From: Candidatus Dadabacteria bacterium
GTDB taxonomy: Bacteria; Desulfobacterota_D; UBA1144; Nemesobacterales; Nemesobacteraceae
Assembly: GCA_026705445.1 (NCBI GenBank)
Contig: JAPPAR010000019.1
Location: forward strand, 62,001-126,000
Length of the DNA: 64,000 bases
Reading direction: 5' to 3'
Shown: one piece after another, positions 1-57,917 of the stretch
Position numbering within the stretch: position 1 is the first letter of the stretch
How the letters are laid out: each line of letters begins with the position of its first letter
The notes under the pieces: model-generated
Seen by the model: only the letters and a program-made list of their open reading frames with translations
What the model was told of the DNA's origin: nothing
The model's database searches: none
Translations under genes and position numbers: made by a program

Positions 1-2364
1 GAGGGTGAAGTAGTGCCGTATTTCTATGAACCATTTCTGGAAGCCTTTGATCCTGAGTTGCGGAAACAACTCGGTGTCTGGTACACACCGACGGAAGTGG
101 TCCATTACATGGTTGCCCGCGTGGACAAGGCTTTAAAAGAAGATCTCGACATTCCGGATGGACTCGCGGCGGACAATGTTTATGTGCTTGACCCATGTTG
201 TGGCACCGGGGCATATCTAGCGGAAGTGCTGCGTTGCATCACAGCCAATCTTGAAGGACAAGGTTTGGGTGCACTTGCGGGTGCGCGGGTGAAACAAGCA
301 GCAACTGAACGGGTATTCGGTTTCGAGATTATGCCTGCACCCTTCGTTGTTGCTCATTTACAAGTCGGACTGACAATGCAGAACTTAGATGCGTCCTTAG
401 CGGATGATGATGCTAAGCGCATCGGTATTTTCCTCACCAATGCACTTACCGGTTGGGAGCCCCGCACGAACAAGCCGCTACCCTTCCCTGAGCTTGAGGA
501 AGAACGTGACCGTGCAGAACGGGTAAAACAGGAAGCACCGATTCTTGTAATCCTCGGTAATCCGCCCTACAATGGCTTTGCGGGAATGGCTGTGGACGAT
601 GAAAGTGAGTTATTGATGGCATACCGCTCAACAAAGTCCGTGCGTAAGCCAGAAGGCCAAGGCCTGAATGATCTTTATGTCCGATTTTTCCGCATGGCGG
701 AACGTCGTATCGCCGAGAAGACTGGGCAAGGGATAGTCTGCTTCATTTCCAACTATTCATGGCTAGACGGTCTGTCTTTTACGGGAATGAGGGAGCGATA
801 CCTTGAAGTTTTTGATGCGATTCGCATTGATTGCCTAAACGGTGACAAGTACAAAACTGGTAAGGTCACGCCGGACGGTTTGCCGGACCCAAGCATATTT
901 TCGACGGAGGGTAATCCCGTAGGCATTCAGGTTGGTACTGCCATCGCAACGCTGATACGTAAAGCTGACCATGTGCCTGCGGAGTGTGTCTGGTTTCGTC
1001 ATATGTGGGGACAAGCAAAACTACAGGAATTGACTGCGACTGCCGAAGCAAAACCAAGAACACTCTATGAAGAGATCAAGCCTGTTTTGCCACTAGGACT
1101 TCCATACGTACAGACATCGGTGAGCCACGGTTGGTTTAACTGGCCGTCCATCCTTGATCTTTTTCCGGTGTTTTTTCCAGGTGTTAAAACCAGTCGCGAC
1201 AGGTTACTTGTGGATATCGATTTTGACCAGCTTCAGATGCGGATTGAAGATTACTTCGATGCGACTTTGAGCCATGACGAAGTTGCGAGACGTTATCCGG
1301 GGACTATGGAGACCACAGCCCAATTCAATGTCCGTTCGCTACGAGATGATCTGCTTAAACGTGGAGGGCCTAACGAATCTGGTTTTATTCGCTATGCTTA
1401 CCGACCGTTCGATATTCGATGGCTTTATTGGGAAGCGTACAGTAATCTGCTTGATCGTCCACGTGACGACTACGAGCCTCATGTGTTCAAGGGAAATTCG
1501 TGGCTAGTTACCCAACAAAAGCCGCGCAGGGAATGGTCTCCTCCTCAGGTAATCTCTAATATTGGTTGTCTTGACCTAATGGACCGTGGTGCAACATGCA
1601 TTCCTATGTGGCTTCGTGATAATGGGCTTGAAAGTGAAGCCAAAGAATCACGTCGCCCAAATCTTTCTACTGTGGCAGAAAGTTACCTCAAATATATTGA
1701 TGCGGGCATCGAGGATCTTTTTCATTGTGTTCTTTCCGTACTCCATGATCCGGAATACCGTGAAGCCAATGATGATGCGCTTCGCATGGATTGGCCGCGC
1801 ATCCCACTTCCGGGTTGGCCGGATGGCAAAGCTGATGGTGCTGAAGCAATTTTTGCAAATTTAACAGCAAGGGGTCGGGCCATTTCGGCCTTATTTAATC
1901 CCGATGCATCTATTTCTGGTATTACACAAGGCTCACTACATCCGGAATTTGCCACTGTAGCTATTCCGACTACGGTGGACGGGCGTAACATGACAGGTGC
2001 GGATTTTGCGGTGACAGTTGGGTGGGGTCGTTACGGTCAAGGTAATGCAATTATGCCTGGCAAAGGTCGCATAGTGGAGCGGGCTTTAACGCCATCAGAA
2101 CGTGCGGCTTTGGGCGATAAGCAACCAGCACTTGGTAAGACAACGTTTGACATTTACCTTAACTCCAGAGCCTTCTGGTGCAATGTTCCTTATGCGGTTT
2201 GGAATTACAAACTTGGGGGTTATCAAGTCCTTAAGAAATGGCTTTCGTACCGAGAACACGATGTTCTCAACCGTGCACTTTCACCCGAGGAAGTTCAGCA
2301 TTTCTCGGATATAGCACGGCGGATTGAGGCTATCATTTTGACAAGTTATCTGAATACGTGTTGA
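1..2364 (+). CDS. Type ISP restriction-modification enzyme, methyltransferase and specificity part (5' end outside window)
   Basis: The reading frame is open from the first base, so the gene starts upstream. The visible 787 codons hold an N6-adenine DNA methyltransferase of the gamma class: a SAM-binding motif I (DPCCGTG, about residues 60-66 counting from the GTG at 13) and the catalytic NPPY motif (183-186). The stretch after about residue 350 resembles the C-terminal target-recognition region of Type ISP enzymes, where one polypeptide carries nuclease, helicase, methylase and specificity domains. In that family the nuclease and helicase come first, so they should lie off the left edge; a separate methylase subunit is also possible. 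The GTG at 13 is a weak start and probably internal. The gene ends 18 bp before the stop of the convergent giant nuclease-ATPase gene. Role: modification, and probably restriction, of foreign DNA. Family call is confident; domain completeness cannot be judged. Confidence 0.85.
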   Translation, partial: EGEVVPYFYEPFLEAFDPELRKQLGVWYTPTEVVHYMVARVDKALKEDLDIPDGLAADNVYVLDPCCGTGAYLAEVLRCITANLEGQGLGALAGARVKQAATERVFGFEIMPAPFVVAHLQVGLTMQNLDASLADDDAKRIGIFLTNALTGWEPRTNKPLPFPELEEERDRAERVKQEAPILVILGNPPYNGFAGMAVDDESELLMAYRSTKSVRKPEGQGLNDLYVRFFRMAERRIAEKTGQGIVCFISNYSWLDGLSFTGMRERYLEVFDAIRIDCLNGDKYKTGKVTPDGLPDPSIFSTEGNPVGIQVGTAIATLIRKADHVPAECVWFRHMWGQAKLQELTATAEAKPRTLYEEIKPVLPLGLPYVQTSVSHGWFNWPSILDLFPVFFPGVKTSRDRLLVDIDFDQLQMRIEDYFDATLSHDEVARRYPGTMETTAQFNVRSLRDDLLKRGGPNESGFIRYAYRPFDIRWLYWEAYSNLLDRPRDDYEPHVFKGNSWLVTQQKPRREWSPPQVISNIGCLDLMDRGATCIPMWLRDNGLESEAKESRRPNLSTVAESYLKYIDAGIEDLFHCVLSVLHDPEYREANDDALRMDWPRIPLPGWPDGKADGAEAIFANLTARGRAISALFNPDASISGITQGSLHPEFATVAIPTTVDGRNMTGADFAVTVGWGRYGQGNAIMPGKGRIVERALTPSERAALGDKQPALGKTTFDIYLNSRAFWCNVPYAVWNYKLGGYQVLKKWLSYREHDVLNRALSPEEVQHFSDIARRIEAIILTSYLNTC

Positions 2365-2382
2365 GGAAATATCAATAACGTC

Positions 2383-5300
2383 TTACAAGTGGTATATCAC
2401 ATGGCGTTTTGAATCTTTCTTGGTATCTGGCTCCTGCTCGGAATAATGCTTATAATACTCACGCGTTTCGTTAATAAGAATGCACAACATTTTTCGGTAA
2501 CAGTCGCAAACCTCAGTTAGAAAATCAAGGCGCACCCGCAACCTTACTCCAAAGGAAAGCTTTTCCCGAGTATATTCTTGGTTCTGGTATCCTTCCTGCC
2601 ATGGTTCGTATTTGGCTATAGCTTCACCATTTTTGATTAAATCAAACCTGTTAAATGAGAGGTTAAATTCGTCTATTATGAATGAGGCTAATGTGCAGAT
2701 ATTCCTATAACCCAAAAAAGGCAAAGGGTTTTGATGTTCGGCAATAAGTGGAATAGAATCTTCATTAATATCGAAGGTCGTATCGCCTCTCTCCATCAGT
2801 ATATTGCGGGACTGCTCTAGCGTTAACGACATCGTTGGCGCTGGGAAGATTTGTTCTAGTTCCAGTTCCATCTCGTCCAAGTTGTGTGGTCCACCATACA
2901 CCTGCCGGGGAATCAGGGCTGCTTGCAACCAAATTGCTTGTCTGTACGGTACATTGTATTTCTCCTCCTGAGCTAGTAACCTCCTTTCGAATACAGTGAT
3001 CCAGTGAGTTTTCTGTTGCTCGTTGTGGGTGTTCCCAACTTGAAATGATTCCATTATGCCAAGTTCTTCGAACCATGTCTCTTTGTCAACCACATTAAGT
3101 GGTTCAATGTCCACTGGACGAGTCATTGTTTCCTCCGTAACATGCTCTGGATCAACGGTTTGTATTGTTTGCCAAAGATGCTCAACTTGCCAAGGACTCA
3201 GTTTCAATTTTTCTGCCGCTTCGTTGAGGATGTTCCAAAGAACTTCCATAACTAGTTCCTGAAATTCAGTTGTGATCCATACAATCGGCCAACCTTGGGG
3301 ATGTACATTCCTATACCAATCGTCTTTGATACGAGGCTTCTCTTCATCAATTGACCAGTTCTGAATATCAAGGCGTTTTTCAATAGTGGCCACGAGGCTC
3401 TCTGGCTTTATCCGAAGAATCCTCTCTATCAGTTTTAGCTGGTTCCAGAAATGGAACAGAGTTTCCTCCTTCAGAAAATTTCGGAAAATTGGACTTGGAT
3501 TTGAGTGCATTCCGTAAGCCGAATGCGATATGGAAGTTGAATACTTTCTTTCGATACGCTTGATCTCTTCAGCAACGGAAGGTTCCAGTGTCGAAACCTC
3601 GCCAACACGCTGAAGAATACGCACTGTTGATTGGCGGCAAAGAAAATCTTTCTTGTTAAGTAGTCTAGCAAGCATTTGCTGATGCGGCACTAACAGGTCG
3701 GGATTCCGAGTCGCAAGCACCTGAAGAATCATCAGCAAGCGACGAAAAAGCCTTCTGGATGCCGATAGTGCTTTACTAACAAGTGGTGGGATTACGTCTT
3801 GAGGCCGTGCAATTGCCAATCTCACTAACGCACGAATCAGCCTTTCGCCGTGATTGATATCCGGCGTGTCTAACTCATCTAATGAAAACTCTAAAATAAG
3901 TTGGTTTTCACTGAGAGGTGTTGTTGCATAATTTTTCAGCCATTCATAGTTATTATCCTGAGGCAACTGTGCAAACATGCTTTCGCAATATATCAAGAAA
4001 TCATTAAAAACTGTCTCAAGCATGTGTGGTTCATCCAGCACATTTAAGCCTTCGGCCGCAATAAGCGGTGTTGCATAACCACCCAGCGAACCTTTTGCTG
4101 AATCGTAGCATTTCTTTAGTAGAGAACTTTTGGCTTCGTTTTTATTTATTTTTGCTATAGATGCAAGAAACCTAGTGTTGCTTTCCCCATAGTATGATCC
4201 TAAAGAGGAGGCATAAGCCATGGCGAAGTCCTTTATAGCATTGTCTTGGTCGTTAAAATCCAAAAAGCGGTTGGCCAAGAACTCAAAGATGTCTGAATTC
4301 AGTGAACGCCGTTGTGATTCGGCGTATTCCTTGATTGAGATGAGGTCCTTTGAAGAACATGTATTTGTTATGTGATAGCGTAAAATTTCTCCCAGTAAAT
4401 CTGGTTTGTAGAAAGGCTTGTTCTGCGTTTTTAACTTGTTGAGTATAGTAAGAGATTCAGAAAATGATGCTTTACATCTCTCCACTATATCTTGTCCGGT
4501 TACAGCTTTTCCATCCAATGTGAATTCTGATGTAAGATGGTCATCTAATCCGGTATTGGTTTCATTTTTGTCCTCTGAATTGAGAGGAATGGGAAATTCG
4601 TTTTTAAGGTGTTCCGGCCAACTCCTGGGATTAATTTCTGTTAGAATAAAATTTCTGAAACGGGCTTCAAACGCCTTTCGGACATCATCTGGACATGATT
4701 CGGCGATTAGGTCGACTATATGCTGCCTAGCCTCCGTAGAATCATTGAACAATGATTCACTAAGGCACCAAAAGTACTCAGGGTCTCCATCAACCGCACT
4801 TAGAAGGTATTTTTTCAGACAATCTTCCATTTGCCATCTTGCCTTTGATTGAGAAAAATGCTTGAGCAATTCTAATGCCGCTTGGCGATTGACAGCAAGA
4901 ACGACAGAAAAAGCTCTTTCCGCAAACCATTTTGTCTCTCGGCCGTCAGTTAGGTGAGGCATCCAATCCACCATCTTTAGTACACTGGCACACCTTTCAA
5001 GTGGCTTTTCAGAATAATGACGGTTTACTAGTTCCAAGATGTCTGTAAGATATGAAAGGGTAATATCTTTTCGATAACCATAAATGAGCGAGGAGCGGAT
5101 TCCGTAGCGAAGCCATTTCTCCGCATCTTCACGCATGCCACAGTTAGCCATGATTGCCGCAAGCCGCATAAAATGAGTCGGTCTGCACTCCCCTTTCAAC
5201 ATAGTTGATTGTTTGTACGTGGCCGCGCAATTTCCTAGAATAGAAACAAGCTTAACTCCTACCACAGAATTCTTCCCGAGAGTCTCCCACAGATTCAATT

Positions 5301-8300
5301 CGAATTCATAATCTTGGCGGTATTCGCTAATTCCGAAGTGTGTGTTCCAAAGAAGAGAATCACGTAGAGAGGCTAATTTCTCAATCCAAGAATCTAATCG
5401 ATCAGGAAAGTGTTTTTGCACCTCTTCGGTCAACAGACCAATTGTGAAAGGTAGCAGGTCCCTTATTACATCAAGCAACTCAACAATTCTTTCACCTCTT
5501 CCCTGCTCGGCATGTACAAGCAGGTCAATGCTTTCGCATGCATCCGGATACCAGTTATTCGTATCGGTTCTGAGCGATTGAGCAATGCAATAACAAGCCT
5601 TTAAAATATGCCGGAGAGTTGAGGTCCAAAGCGTCTGCGACGTACCGACGGCATCACAGAGGTTAGCATAGGAAGCCTCGTTGCCCTCGTAGCCGAGAAC
5701 GATAAATGAGTACGCATAGTGGCTGAGTATTGGATCTTTCCATTTTATATGGTCTGGGCAATCGACTTCCGGAACTTGAATAAGTCCTGCAATGGCGGAT
5801 ACTTCGAGGGCAGACATGCCTGCTTTGGCAGCGTAAAAAGCCAGTTCTACATTGTTGCAGGGGGATTCTTGTTCCACGTATTCTGTTACGGCAACCCGTA
5901 GGTCATCAAGAAGACCGTGGCGTGCTAGTGCCCGGATCAACAGATAACGGACTAGACGATTTGGGAAAATCCTTCTTACACGTTTGAGCCGGCTCCACTT
6001 TTCCCTACGTTTGAACTGTACCAGTGCGTCAATGTATGCCGACAGATGCGGTGCGTAGTCCGGCGCATAGGGGTCGGCTGGCTGCATAACACCAGGAGTT
6101 AAATTAAACCCAGAGAGCCAACGAAGTGGATGTGCTTGATGCTCCGAATATATGCCAAAACACCGAGCGATGTCATTAATCTGCAAACGGGCTTCATATA
6201 CATCGTCAGAGTTGATACCCCGAAACTCATCCATAAATACGTCAAAAAGCTTTTTCCCAAATTCCAACCTGCTGTTTTCCGCAAGCGCTGACATAACAGC
6301 AAGTGAAGTTTGCAAGTCGACTATCCAACAGTTTGACTCCGGTGAAAAAGTAAAGGAAGTTACGTCTTGGTCACGACCAAGAGCCAGAAGGGTATCCGCA
6401 AGAAGACCTCTGTCTAGATTCTCTTCAAGACGTTCATGGGTTCTATATTTCAGGGAACCAAGCCGACTGAGTTGAACGATGTCCTCTAACTTGAATGCTG
6501 ATTCCACTGCCCATTGTATTGCATCCATTATCTCTTCGGATGGTCGATAGTACAGAAGAGCGTGATCAACAAAATCAGCATTTACTTCTTGAATTACATA
6601 AGAGTAGTCCTCTGCTTCATAACAATATTCAAACACATACCCGAACCACTTGGTAGAATTTTTGTTATCTTTCAGAAAACCCGCAATGTTCCGCTTTATC
6701 TCCCTTAGCCAGTCTTCCTCAAGCTGACTTACCACAAACTCGCGGAAACTGTTATGGAATACGGATAGCCCGTATTCAGAGTCCCGCAAAAGGTGATTCA
6801 TACGCTTGTATGCGTCTTCAAACTGAGGGCGGGTGAGAGAGTGCTGAATTCTGTGGAGTTCCTCCCTGTGAAGAGAAAACCGCAGACATGACATTGCTGC
6901 GCACAAGTGCTTTGTGTCAGTTGTGCCTACTTGGTCGAATTCTTCCCAGAGAAGATGATAATAGTTGCGGATATCTCCATGCTCTGCTGGTGCAAGGAAG
7001 TCGATAGCGTCCGATACTGAATCGGCAACCAAAAGGGTTTCCGCGGTATACTGCAGATACAGTGGAAGTCCTTCGCAATTTTTGTGGATATTGACGATAT
7101 CAGCGTGTAGAAGCCCTGATATTTGTCGTTTGTTCTCCAAGTAATCTTGCGTCTCGGATTGTGAGAATAACGGCATCCGGATATGAGTTTCCGGACATTC
7201 TTTCACGCGCTTGAGAAAATGAGGCCAATTGTGCAGCTCCTGAGTACTTGTCACAAAGGTACAGTTGTCTGGAACATTTGACGGCAGAGCGGAGATTACG
7301 GTGTCTCTTACTACCTGCTCAAGCCGCTCGGCATGATCCAGTCCGTCCACAAAGATTACAAACCGTTGACCTCTGCTGGCAAAAAAATCTGCCAATTTCT
7401 TCAGACATTCATAAAAATTCTGTTCGCTGTAGTCAAACCGCCGATCGAGAATGTCTGGGTATCTCCTATGAAACTCATTCAACAAGTTTGCTCGGAGGCT
7501 TTCCGCTCGGGCACGTATCTTCTGAGCGTTGTCGTTCACTCCAACGAAGCAATAATAACTGAAAACCTCATACTCAGTTTGATTCAGCGCATTGAAATAT
7601 GCTGTCAGTGAAGTGGACTTGCCGCTGCCGGGCAAGCCGGTAACAATGAGATATCCCCAATTAGCTTGTGGCAACATCTCATCCAGTTGGTTTGAAAGAG
7701 ACTCTTGTTTTACAAAGTGTTCTTGGTTTACAGGGAATGTCTGTGGAATTAGCAAACTACTTCGGAATCGTTCGAGAAGCTCATCCACTGATTCTCGGGT
7801 GATTGCATCTCTGGAGAAAATCGCGTTTTTTTTGATGAATTCCTTCAGTTCGAAAAATATTGAGGTATCGGAAAGCCCTAACTTTCTGTTCAGGAGAAAA
7901 GTTTGAATATATTGCTCCAGATCTTTTAATTCTCTTTGTTTAATACAGAACTGGAAGTCTTTCAAAAATTTTCGGAAAGAGTTAGGATCAAGTCCCGAGG
8001 TATTCTCCAGTTGCAAGCGCAGTTCTCTCGCCTTCTTACGTTTGCGATTTTCAATGACTTTTGGTTTAAAGGCCCCATCGGGTGTCACAAGATCAACGAG
8101 AGTGGCATCAAGGGCACGGTTAGACAAAAGGTAAGTGGTTAAGCTATATTCTGGGAATTCTTCTCGTATAGTGTTCCAACTATGCGAGAATTTCCCGAAG
8201 TTTACCTTGCTTTTGGGATCAATTAGATCGCTAGGTTCATATACGCTAAGCGGATTGACTGCGTATTTAACTTGGTAGGCGGAAATTTTATTGCCTTGAA

Positions 8301-8460
8301 ATAGAACAATATCATCAAGGTTCCCGGCCTTCTCATAATTCAAGAACATCTCGAATGGAGTACTGTCTATATAATTTTCTAGTGCAAGCCGCAGAGCGGT
8401 GAGGTCTTGATATTCATCGCCCTTTCTTAGGGAACTGCCTCTTTTTTTTGCTTCAGTCAT
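2383..8460 (-). CDS. Avs-like giant defence protein: Cap4-type nuclease, STAND NTPase, helical-repeat sensor
   Basis: A 2025-residue protein in three parts. Residues 1-130 look like a Cap4/DUF4297-type PD-(D/E)xK nuclease: a GDEYQ segment near 14-18, the acidic pair D49-D50, and QVK at 63-65. Residues 250-450 form a P-loop NTPase with Walker A GLPGSGKS (275-282) and a Walker B-like VIFVDGLDH (368-376), as in STAND ATPases. From about residue 600 to the end the protein is long, helical and leucine-rich, as expected of TPR/HEAT-like sensor repeats; no further known domain was recognised. This order matches Avs antiphage proteins, which sense phage proteins, oligomerise and cut DNA. It is convergent with a Type ISP gene. 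ATG at 8460 is the first in frame; no good Shine-Dalgarno is visible. Base composition is AT-richer than the core genes, suggesting transfer. The nuclease-ATPase architecture is clear; the Avs assignment is inference. Confidence 0.8.
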   Translation of the reverse strand: MTEAKKRGSSLRKGDEYQDLTALRLALENYIDSTPFEMFLNYEKAGNLDDIVLFQGNKISAYQVKYAVNPLSVYEPSDLIDPKSKVNFGKFSHSWNTIREEFPEYSLTTYLLSNRALDATLVDLVTPDGAFKPKVIENRKRKKARELRLQLENTSGLDPNSFRKFLKDFQFCIKQRELKDLEQYIQTFLLNRKLGLSDTSIFFELKEFIKKNAIFSRDAITRESVDELLERFRSSLLIPQTFPVNQEHFVKQESLSNQLDEMLPQANWGYLIVTGLPGSGKSTSLTAYFNALNQTEYEVFSYYCFVGVNDNAQKIRARAESLRANLLNEFHRRYPDILDRRFDYSEQNFYECLKKLADFFASRGQRFVIFVDGLDHAERLEQVVRDTVISALPSNVPDNCTFVTSTQELHNWPHFLKRVKECPETHIRMPLFSQSETQDYLENKRQISGLLHADIVNIHKNCEGLPLYLQYTAETLLVADSVSDAIDFLAPAEHGDIRNYYHLLWEEFDQVGTTDTKHLCAAMSCLRFSLHREELHRIQHSLTRPQFEDAYKRMNHLLRDSEYGLSVFHNSFREFVVSQLEEDWLREIKRNIAGFLKDNKNSTKWFGYVFEYCYEAEDYSYVIQEVNADFVDHALLYYRPSEEIMDAIQWAVESAFKLEDIVQLSRLGSLKYRTHERLEENLDRGLLADTLLALGRDQDVTSFTFSPESNCWIVDLQTSLAVMSALAENSRLEFGKKLFDVFMDEFRGINSDDVYEARLQINDIARCFGIYSEHQAHPLRWLSGFNLTPGVMQPADPYAPDYAPHLSAYIDALVQFKRREKWSRLKRVRRIFPNRLVRYLLIRALARHGLLDDLRVAVTEYVEQESPCNNVELAFYAAKAGMSALEVSAIAGLIQVPEVDCPDHIKWKDPILSHYAYSFIVLGYEGNEASYANLCDAVGTSQTLWTSTLRHILKACYCIAQSLRTDTNNWYPDACESIDLLVHAEQGRGERIVELLDVIRDLLPFTIGLLTEEVQKHFPDRLDSWIEKLASLRDSLLWNTHFGISEYRQDYEFELNLWETLGKNSVVGVKLVSILGNCAATYKQSTMLKGECRPTHFMRLAAIMANCGMREDAEKWLRYGIRSSLIYGYRKDITLSYLTDILELVNRHYSEKPLERCASVLKMVDWMPHLTDGRETKWFAERAFSVVLAVNRQAALELLKHFSQSKARWQMEDCLKKYLLSAVDGDPEYFWCLSESLFNDSTEARQHIVDLIAESCPDDVRKAFEARFRNFILTEINPRSWPEHLKNEFPIPLNSEDKNETNTGLDDHLTSEFTLDGKAVTGQDIVERCKASFSESLTILNKLKTQNKPFYKPDLLGEILRYHITNTCSSKDLISIKEYAESQRRSLNSDIFEFLANRFLDFNDQDNAIKDFAMAYASSLGSYYGESNTRFLASIAKINKNEAKSSLLKKCYDSAKGSLGGYATPLIAAEGLNVLDEPHMLETVFNDFLIYCESMFAQLPQDNNYEWLKNYATTPLSENQLILEFSLDELDTPDINHGERLIRALVRLAIARPQDVIPPLVSKALSASRRLFRRLLMILQVLATRNPDLLVPHQQMLARLLNKKDFLCRQSTVRILQRVGEVSTLEPSVAEEIKRIERKYSTSISHSAYGMHSNPSPIFRNFLKEETLFHFWNQLKLIERILRIKPESLVATIEKRLDIQNWSIDEEKPRIKDDWYRNVHPQGWPIVWITTEFQELVMEVLWNILNEAAEKLKLSPWQVEHLWQTIQTVDPEHVTEETMTRPVDIEPLNVVDKETWFEELGIMESFQVGNTHNEQQKTHWITVFERRLLAQEEKYNVPYRQAIWLQAALIPRQVYGGPHNLDEMELELEQIFPAPTMSLTLEQSRNILMERGDTTFDINEDSIPLIAEHQNPLPFLGYRNICTLASFIIDEFNLSFNRFDLIKNGEAIAKYEPWQEGYQNQEYTREKLSFGVRLRVRLDFLTEVCDCYRKMLCILINETREYYKHYSEQEPDTKKDSKRHVIYHL

Positions 8461-8948
8461 TGTGGGCTACAATTAAGTTATTGTTCCTAAATTAAAATTG
8501 TTGTAGAACAAAGGTTATTCAAACAGATTAACGGTAAGCGTAACTGGGTTACTTATATCCTTACTATTTGGTCCATATGAATAGATTTTCTAAGCAGAAA
8601 AAACACATTGAATATTTCTCCGCATGGAGACAAATTTTCCTAAACTTATTTCAAAAAAAGACCAAGTGGCTACGGTGCTTGTCGACTTGACTTGCTAATC
8701 TTATAATCAAATAAAGAGGTATATCGGTGCCATAGAGTGGATAACTGATTAAGAACAACCGATTTGAAGTTTTAAGATCAGTTGACACTTTTCTTAAGGA
8801 ATTATGCTCCTTATTGCTTTAACCTCGTAAAGTTCAAAACACTCCTTGTCCAAACTTTTTGCGAAGCTATTAAATAGAACTGTTCAGCAGTTTACTGAAG
8901 AATATTAGAACGGAAAAGTCAGTATTCTCTCGACTTTTTAAAGTTCCC
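8461..8948. other. AT-rich intergenic gap at the edge of the defence island
   Basis: 488 bp without a credible gene between the nuclease-ATPase start and the NTF2-like gene stop. It is markedly AT-rich with many stop codons in all frames. Scattered promoter-like words occur (TTGACA at 8782-8787, TATAAT at 8702-8707) but none pairs with a partner at 16-18 bp spacing ahead of a gene. The promoter of the leftward nuclease-ATPase gene must lie here but could not be identified. No tRNA, attachment repeat or insertion sequence was seen. Confidence 0.6.
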
Positions 8949-9377
8949 TTACTGTATGGTTTTCTTGTCCGGTTCGTAACCGCGTACGGGAATCGGCGAG
9001 GCATGATGAAAGATCATAAGCCACCTGCCGTCCTGCTTCTCGAATATGTTGGTTGACTGGGAGAGGTTGAACATGACCGGATCCCTTTTTATGTATACCA
9101 TTTCCTGCAGGCAGGTCACCCAGGCGATGTTCTCGCTTATATCCACGGTCACGTTTGAAATGCTGATGTCAACCTGGTCCTGGGGGTCAAAAACGCTTTC
9201 CCAACTCTGCCTGATGGCTTCCCAGTTGCGAAGAGCCGTCCATCCCGGATGGACGCAGCCGGATCTTGAGTCCTTTATCCAGACCTCTCCCATAAGCTCG
9301 AGATTCCTGGTTCCCAGGGCTTCGTAAAAAAGGCTGTTCATCCTGAGTATTTCTTCGCTGTCCTTTTTCGTAGTCAA
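8949..9377 (-). CDS. NTF2-like (SnoaL/DUF4440-type) protein
   Basis: A 142-residue protein of the nuclear transport factor 2-like fold, a cone-shaped domain used for small-molecule binding or as an enzyme scaffold. The N-terminal helical segment, the central HPGWTALRNWEAI region (about 42-54) and the closing WLMIFHHASP strand (about 123-132) are typical of small stand-alone SnoaL_3-like proteins in bacteria. No catalytic residues can be assigned with certainty. It is the last gene of the leftward run after rseP, 21 bp from it, so probably co-transcribed. No signal peptide. The biological role is unknown. Confidence 0.75.
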   Translation of the reverse strand: MTTKKDSEEILRMNSLFYEALGTRNLELMGEVWIKDSRSGCVHPGWTALRNWEAIRQSWESVFDPQDQVDISISNVTVDISENIAWVTCLQEMVYIKRDPVMFNLSQSTNIFEKQDGRWLMIFHHASPIPVRGYEPDKKTIQ

Positions 9378-57206: not shown

Positions 57207-57917
57207 ATGAGTTCTAGTAACGACTTGGTAAAAGATCTTGGGGTGCTGTATTCCGCTAAACCTGCTCCTGTAGGAGAAGCTTTTCGTATTCAAAACGAGC
57301 TTTCCCGAAGGGTTGTAAAAACCCCTAACCCGAAGCCTATTCACACCATTGCCGGCACCGATATTGCTATCTGCGTTAAGGAGAAGAAGCTTGTCTGCGG
57401 GATGATTCTTTTTTCCTACCCCGAGCTGGAGGAGATCGAGAGGGTATGGACTGTCTCGGATGAAGTATTCCCCTATGTTCCCGGACTTCTGGGTTTCAGG
57501 GAGGCGCCTTGCGTCATAAGGACTTTCGACAAGCTTCGTGAGCACTGTGACATGATTATGGTAGACGGACACGGACTTGCTCATCCAAGAGGCTTCGGAC
57601 TTGCCTGTCATGTCGGAGTTCTGCTCGATATTCCGGCGATAGGTGTCGCAAAGAAATGTCTTTACGGGACTTTCAGCGAACCGGGTCCTAAGAAGGGTGA
57701 AAGAGAGTTAATAAGAGGCAAGAACCGTGAGGTCATTGGCGCAGCTTTGAGAACCAGAGACGGCGTTAAACCGGTTTTCGTGTCTATTGGGAACAGAACC
57801 GACCTCTATACCACTATTGTGGTTGCCCTTGAGTGCTCGCGCGGTCTTAGGATTCCCGAACCTACAAGGCTTGCCGACAAGTATGTAGGGTTGCTTAAAA
57901 AAGAGGTGTGCGGATAA
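57207..57917 (+). CDS. nfi: Endonuclease V
   Basis: Cleaves DNA one base 3' to deoxyinosine and other deaminated bases. Catalytic positions are Asp52 (in AGTDIAI), Glu99 (in VPGLLGFREAP) and Asp120 (in VDGHGLAHPRGFGLACHVG). The family Tyr wedge lies in FPYVPG (about 88-93), and later GVAKKCLYG (about 144-152) is conserved. Length 236 is typical. It is divergent from the hydrolase gene, with about 100 bp between. Confidence 0.96.
   Translation: MSSSNDLVKDLGVLYSAKPAPVGEAFRIQNELSRRVVKTPNPKPIHTIAGTDIAICVKEKKLVCGMILFSYPELEEIERVWTVSDEVFPYVPGLLGFREAPCVIRTFDKLREHCDMIMVDGHGLAHPRGFGLACHVGVLLDIPAIGVAKKCLYGTFSEPGPKKGERELIRGKNREVIGAALRTRDGVKPVFVSIGNRTDLYTTIVVALECSRGLRIPEPTRLADKYVGLLKKEVCG

Follow-up and report, generated by a model that had tools for sequence, protein, structure and literature searches.

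The window, the 64,000-nucleotide stretch of Candidatus Dadabacteria DNA analysed here, contains at positions 2383–8460, on the minus strand, an intact open reading frame that has an ATG start and zero internal stops, encodes a 2025-residue protein, and is present in one copy in the source genome. The protein aligns end to end with ten relatives, each 2022–2034 residues in length, and the dN/dS ratio across the whole gene is 0.11–0.16, indicating purifying selection; together, these results indicate that the gene is functional. The features of the locus, with the basis for each, are as follows:

1..2364, plus strand: 3′ part of a type ISP/IIG restriction-modification enzyme (PF18135, 2e-42; PADLOC REase_MTase_IIG, 1.3e-79)
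2383..8460, minus strand: Avs3-like nuclease-STAND-solenoid protein, 2025 aa (open reading frame, full-length relatives, dN/dS)
2395..3003, minus strand: beta-rich C-terminal domain, residues ~1820–2022 (secondary structure of the model)
3136..6240, minus strand: predicted alpha-helical solenoid, sensor, residues 741–1775 (AlphaFold2 models, Foldseek)
4186..4635, minus strand: fast-evolving sensor stretch, residues 1276–1425 (dN/dS 0.19–0.36, versus 0.11–0.16 for the gene)
5065..5082, minus strand: YGYRKD, residues 1127–1132 (conservation in 51 sequences)
6241..7743, minus strand: STAND NTPase with winged-helix region, residues 240–740 (PADLOC, NCBIfam, Foldseek)
6745..6759, minus strand: FHNSF, residues 568–572, H569 invariant (conservation in 51 sequences)
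7333..7359, minus strand: Walker B, VIFVDGLDH, residues 368–376 (translation; DGLDH used as search pattern)
7615..7638, minus strand: Walker A, GLPGSGKS, residues 275–282 (translation; conservation in 51 sequences)
7768..8460, minus strand: Cap4-type PD-(D/E)xK nuclease effector domain, residues 1–231 (PADLOC, Foldseek, profile match)
8266..8316, minus strand: catalytic motif, D49-D50...Q63-V64-K65 (conservation in 51 sequences)
8930..8948, no strand: island right edge, by the SnoaL-like gene at 8949–9377 (comparison with relatives that lack the island)

An island between purE and SnoaL/rseP

The gene is part of an island that spans 57.5–70.9 kb of the contig (approximately window positions −4500 to 8945) and lies between purE, on one side, and the SnoaL-like gene and rseP, on the other. 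The island comprises a KGGVGR ATPase with TPR (PADLOC PDC-M28B), an MqsA-like antitoxin, a 125-aa neighbour, the type ISP restriction-modification (RM) gene, and the Avs-like gene. The RM open reading frame, 1125 aa as a whole, begins to the left of the window and is convergent with the Avs-like gene, from which it is separated by 18 bp. The purE–SnoaL/rseP site is an island hotspot: in seven members of the genus, purE directly adjoins the SnoaL gene, without the island; genome G010 has at the site only the KGGVGR ATPase-MqsA module; and genome G013 has a related type ISP RM gene. The edges of the site map to window positions ~8930–8948 and contig position 57446, and, in relatives, to L030:3620–3680 and L033:16180–16240. 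In G013, and less clearly in G006, the 3′ end of purE appears, as judged by eye, to be repeated at the right edge, the pattern that site-specific integration would leave. Left of the window, at contig positions 57684–60436 (L002:12684–15436), the KGGVGR ParA-like ATPase with TPR (PDC-M28B, 2.5e-35), the MqsA-like antitoxin, and the adjacent 125-aa protein, which has no Pfam match, form a three-gene module that recurs at the same site in G010 (L039:2254–5039) with 51–70% identity.

The initial annotation had placed the gene in an AT-rich island at the edge of core genes. The adjacent RM enzyme and the position between purE and SnoaL/rseP bear out the island and its core-gene border; the dip in GC content is real but only modest (~0.41–0.46 for the gene and 0.38 for the 1-kb bin at its start, versus ~0.48 for the window). 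Close relatives of the gene have comparable surroundings. In a Caldilineaceae bin (locus L057:5891–18575), the gene for a relative 62% identical to the window protein is inserted between hsdS and hsdR and, at its start, overlaps the end of hsdS by 8 bp; others adjoin IetAS (Eubacteriales), AbiE (Clostridiales), or a YhcG nuclease and a MobA/MobL relaxase (Megasphaera). None of the close relatives was found in a housekeeping setting, and several adjoin defence genes.

Nuclease, NTPase, and sensor

The N-terminal block, proposed earlier to be nuclease-like, matches a nuclease family, not a non-nuclease one. In particular, residues 6–231 match the PADLOC models SAVED_PDDEXK (1.1e-13) and CBASS endonuclease (5.6e-13), the Foldseek matches of the predicted structure of residues 1–1200 include Cap4 (7yib) and the Hachiman HamA nuclease, and a profile built from eleven sequences matches Cap4 7yib in the PDB (E 0.0017). 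Residues D50 and K65 are retained in 51/51 aligned sequences, and D49 and Q63 in 49/51, and the nuclease is therefore probably active. A phmmer search of the protein against the PDB yielded nothing meaningful. Two PDB profile matches leave the sensor unexplained, namely Cap4 7yib and 9n00, a 1523-aa AAA family ATPase matched over residues 12–84 only; weak Pfam matches to HEPN_Apea and DUF7669 (E>0.1) were set aside.

The translation has D49, D50, Q63-V64-K65, GLPGSGKS, and VIFVDGLDH precisely where they had been reported. These motifs are not chance occurrences, since they are invariant or near-invariant in an alignment of 51 sequences, most of which share 16–25% identity with the window protein; DGLDH served as the search pattern for relatives, and its invariance is excluded from the evidence. 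Invariant positions are D50, K65, G278, G280, K281, S282, G464, H569, and S571, and the conserved elements include the Walker A motif, a GLPL motif, and the FHNSF histidine, which, by analogy, would occupy the MHD-like position of the winged helix. The P-loop ATPase reported previously is of STAND type, with Walker motifs in place and with matches to PADLOC Avs1b (1.8e-38, over residues 241–741), the closest named family by sequence, and to NCBIfam NF041810 (1.9e-31; 108 bits, where the full-length cut-off of that model is 1500).

AlphaFold2 models were obtained for residues 1–1200 (pLDDT 87.6) and residues 826–2025 (pLDDT 80, pTM 0.67). For residues 1–1200, the best Foldseek match is the Avs3-terminase complex (8dgc, E 6e-22), followed by Avs4 (8dgf, 2e-8); further neighbours include MalT, the ZAR1 resistosome, and CED-4. 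In the model of residues 826–2025, a helical solenoid runs to approximately residue 1775 and gives way to an end domain rich in beta structure. The top PDB entry for this model is again Avs3, in complex with the terminase of phage PhiV-1 (8dgc, both chains, E 5.1e-12), ahead by approximately six orders of magnitude of the runner-up, a generic HEAT protein (1.8e-5); Avs4 8dgf is absent among the 50 matches listed. The superposition with 8dgc has a TM-score of 0.44 over ~1290 columns and an rmsd of 17.6 Å, an agreement in fold and path, not in binding surface. The initial annotation had described ~1400 further residues without a known domain, which is correct at the level of Pfam, where nothing beyond the NTPase scores above cut-off. 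It had also called the sensor unrecognised; this does not stand, as the predicted fold is nearest the terminase-bound Avs3 sensor and its kind can be placed.

Within the sensor half covered by the 51-sequence alignment, the best-conserved point is K1131 (45/51) and D1132 (49/51); this mid-sensor KD pair, in YGYRKD, persists although overall identity drops below 20%. Positive selection was not seen in the sensor: dN/dS is below 1 in every segment, and the largest values come from segments where dS is very small.

Relation to known systems and distribution of the family

The protein shares with Avs3 (AVAST type 3; SeAvs3, 8dgc) a Cap4-type nuclease, a STAND NTPase, a long helical solenoid, and an end domain, in one chain of ~2000 aa, and both predicted halves have 8dgc as their best PDB match. 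It differs in having no sequence similarity to Avs3 detectable by the tools used: no Avs3 sequence model in PADLOC or NCBIfam matches at E<=1, and PDB sequence searches returned no Avs3. We therefore file the protein as Avs3-like and not as Avs3. Nor does any Avs model of PADLOC or NCBIfam account for the protein over its full length.

Avs1b (AVAST type 1) has the nearest STAND region by sequence, and the profile alignment is collinear (219–1993 versus 175–1904; prob 99.9 for the whole protein including the NTPase), whereas the sensor alone gives a weak, non-significant match (prob 38.8). Furthermore, Avs1b has a protease and the partners Avs1a and Avs1c, whereas the window protein has a nuclease instead, and no avs1a- or avs1c-like genes were seen among its neighbours. 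Avs4 (EcAvs4) has the same nuclease-STAND-repeat architecture and provides the third and fourth Foldseek matches of the N-terminal half, but its sensor fold does not appear among the 50 matches listed for the sensor half. CBASS Cap4 and the DUF4297 nuclease of DUF4297-HerA share the nuclease fold and motif; in the window protein, by contrast, there is no SAVED domain or HerA partner and the regulatory part is STAND. PADLOC Cap4 matches end at approximately residue 231, a SAVED domain does not follow, and no CD-NTase-type partner gene was seen among the island neighbours.

Another set of related proteins has no name: Cap4-STAND proteins encoded on plasmids and chromosomes of V. cholerae (pW7G), N. 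halophilus, K. pneumoniae, and P. aeruginosa have the same effector and NTPase, at 22–25% identity. Profile alignment shows the sensor to be homologous to sensors of other Cap4-STAND groups, namely the N. halophilus/V. cholerae group and cluster VI (prob 98.5). The window protein belongs to this unnamed Cap4-STAND family and represents a divergent subfamily of a known type of immune sensor; the sequence, the predicted structure, and the genomic context all support the earlier description of a divergent Avs-type sensor. A scan of genome contigs for close relatives with the single protein as query yielded nothing, whereas a profile scan, based on an alignment and covering a single genome for each species, identified 135 relatives, 80 of them then retrieved. 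Searches of viral contigs and phage records turned up no relatives. On most plasmids examined, family members are annotated just as "ATP-binding protein" or "hypothetical protein".

In the Klebsiella and Pseudomonas type, and in a paralog in Dadabacterium G010, a separate overlapping gene of ~480 aa encodes the final stretch of the sensor, unlike in the window protein. These separate subunits are homologous (prob 99.9) to the C-terminal portion of cluster VI proteins, which are single chains. A direct profile comparison with the C terminus of the window protein was not significant (prob 0.1); via cluster VI (99.9, then 98.5), the subunits may correspond to that C terminus. The G010 paralog (L008:6963–14313, G010:C66) is distant, 22–25% identical over the nuclease and STAND regions, is located downstream of a bSEFIR gene (PADLOC 4.9e-112), and has its sensor divided into overlapping genes of 1466 aa and ~480–500 aa.

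Members of the window protein's own clade, with 57–67% identity over the full length, occur in Dadabacteria, Omnitrophota, Chloroflexota, and Bacillota, and relatives with 33–40% identity occur on ANME-1 and Lokiarchaeota contigs. In a tree of the NTPase domain, the clade that unites these four phyla (SH-aLRT 99) also holds Gammaproteobacteria and the ANME-1 and Lokiarchaeota contigs. The gene is therefore horizontally mobile, with a clade spread across phyla and apparently across domains. Several clade records are metagenome bins, and single placements may reflect contamination; the MAG label is absent from the ANME-1 record AG-394-G06 and from the isolates of Megasphaera and Propionispira. 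Within the phylum, the gene is present in 3/58 genomes, one of the three having only a 25% paralog. Two Bacillota copies (L052:9001–15105, L053:4151–10255) look mosaic, with dS of 0.29–0.44 in the nuclease and STAND regions and of 0.01–0.03 from approximately residue 1276 to the end, a difference that suggests replacement of the sensor half by recombination.

Proposed mechanism and alternatives

We consider it probable that the protein is a single-protein anti-phage sensor built like Avs3, in which DNA cleavage and abortive infection are triggered by a phage protein, the large terminase being the likeliest. At rest, the protein would be kept inactive by its STAND NTPase. Upon infection, the C-terminal solenoid and end domain would bind the phage protein, and the ATP-bound protein would then oligomerise (Avs3 forms a tetramer), pairing the N-terminal Cap4-type nuclease domains, which would cut double-stranded DNA of phage and host and thereby abort the infection. 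Trigger, oligomerisation, DNA cleavage, and protection are all proposed by analogy with Avs3; in SeAvs3, binding of a viral protein leads to tetramerisation and to pairing of the nuclease domains (PMC11291478). In favour of this explanation are the order of the domains, the intact motifs of nuclease and NTPase, the predicted sensor fold nearest Avs3, purifying selection, horizontal spread, and the surrounding defence genes. Against it count the STAND sequence, which is nearer Avs1b than Avs3, the failure of PADLOC, NCBIfam, and PDB searches to match Avs3 by sequence, and the low TM-score and large rmsd of the sensor superposition.

Avs1, like Avs3, is a terminase sensor; since Avs3 is the nearest sensor by structure and Avs1 the nearest relative by sequence, the large terminase is the favoured trigger. 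The same nuclease-STAND machine might instead respond to another phage product, such as the portal, a Ksap1-like protein, an early protein, or several of these, a reading that we regard as possible and distinctly less likely. It draws on the absence of detectable sequence shared with the Avs3 sensor, on the weak sensor-only similarity to Avs1b, and on the diversity of Avs triggers, which are sometimes multiple and which comprise terminase, portal, and Ksap1 for Avs1–4 taken together and JADA for Avs5 (PMC12931631). Among solved Avs sensors, on the other hand, Avs3, which binds terminase, resembles the predicted fold far more closely than does Avs4, which binds the portal, in line with the terminase affinity of both nearest types.

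Two readings depart further from an Avs3-like sensor. PrrC guards its hsd operon, and proteins of this clade could likewise guard RM, with a sensor that detects anti-restriction proteins or stalled RM enzymes, not phage packaging proteins, and that fires when a phage blocks the neighbouring enzyme. Such guarding, if true, would explain both the insertion into an hsd operon in the Caldilineaceae relative, with its short overlap with hsdS, and the RM gene so close to the window gene. We consider it very unlikely, given that the RM gene in the window is convergent and not co-directional, that an adjacent RM gene was not identified in most relatives, that the site in G013 holds an RM gene but no Avs gene, and that clustering of defence genes happens anyway. 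More improbable still is a STAND regulator with a non-defence role and an N-terminal domain that binds DNA without cutting it: STAND cores do occur in regulators, and MalT is among the Foldseek matches, but the nuclease catalytic residues are conserved in 49–51 of 51 sequences, the distribution within the phylum is patchy, and the gene is located in an island and has defence neighbours.

With the Avs3-like sensor as the preferred reading, a large and unnamed Cap4-STAND family is now placed near Avs3, and a testable prediction of its trigger follows from that placement. One clade of the family has crossed phyla and, apparently, domains, and the split-sensor versions offer a natural route to studying the C-terminal recognition part alone.
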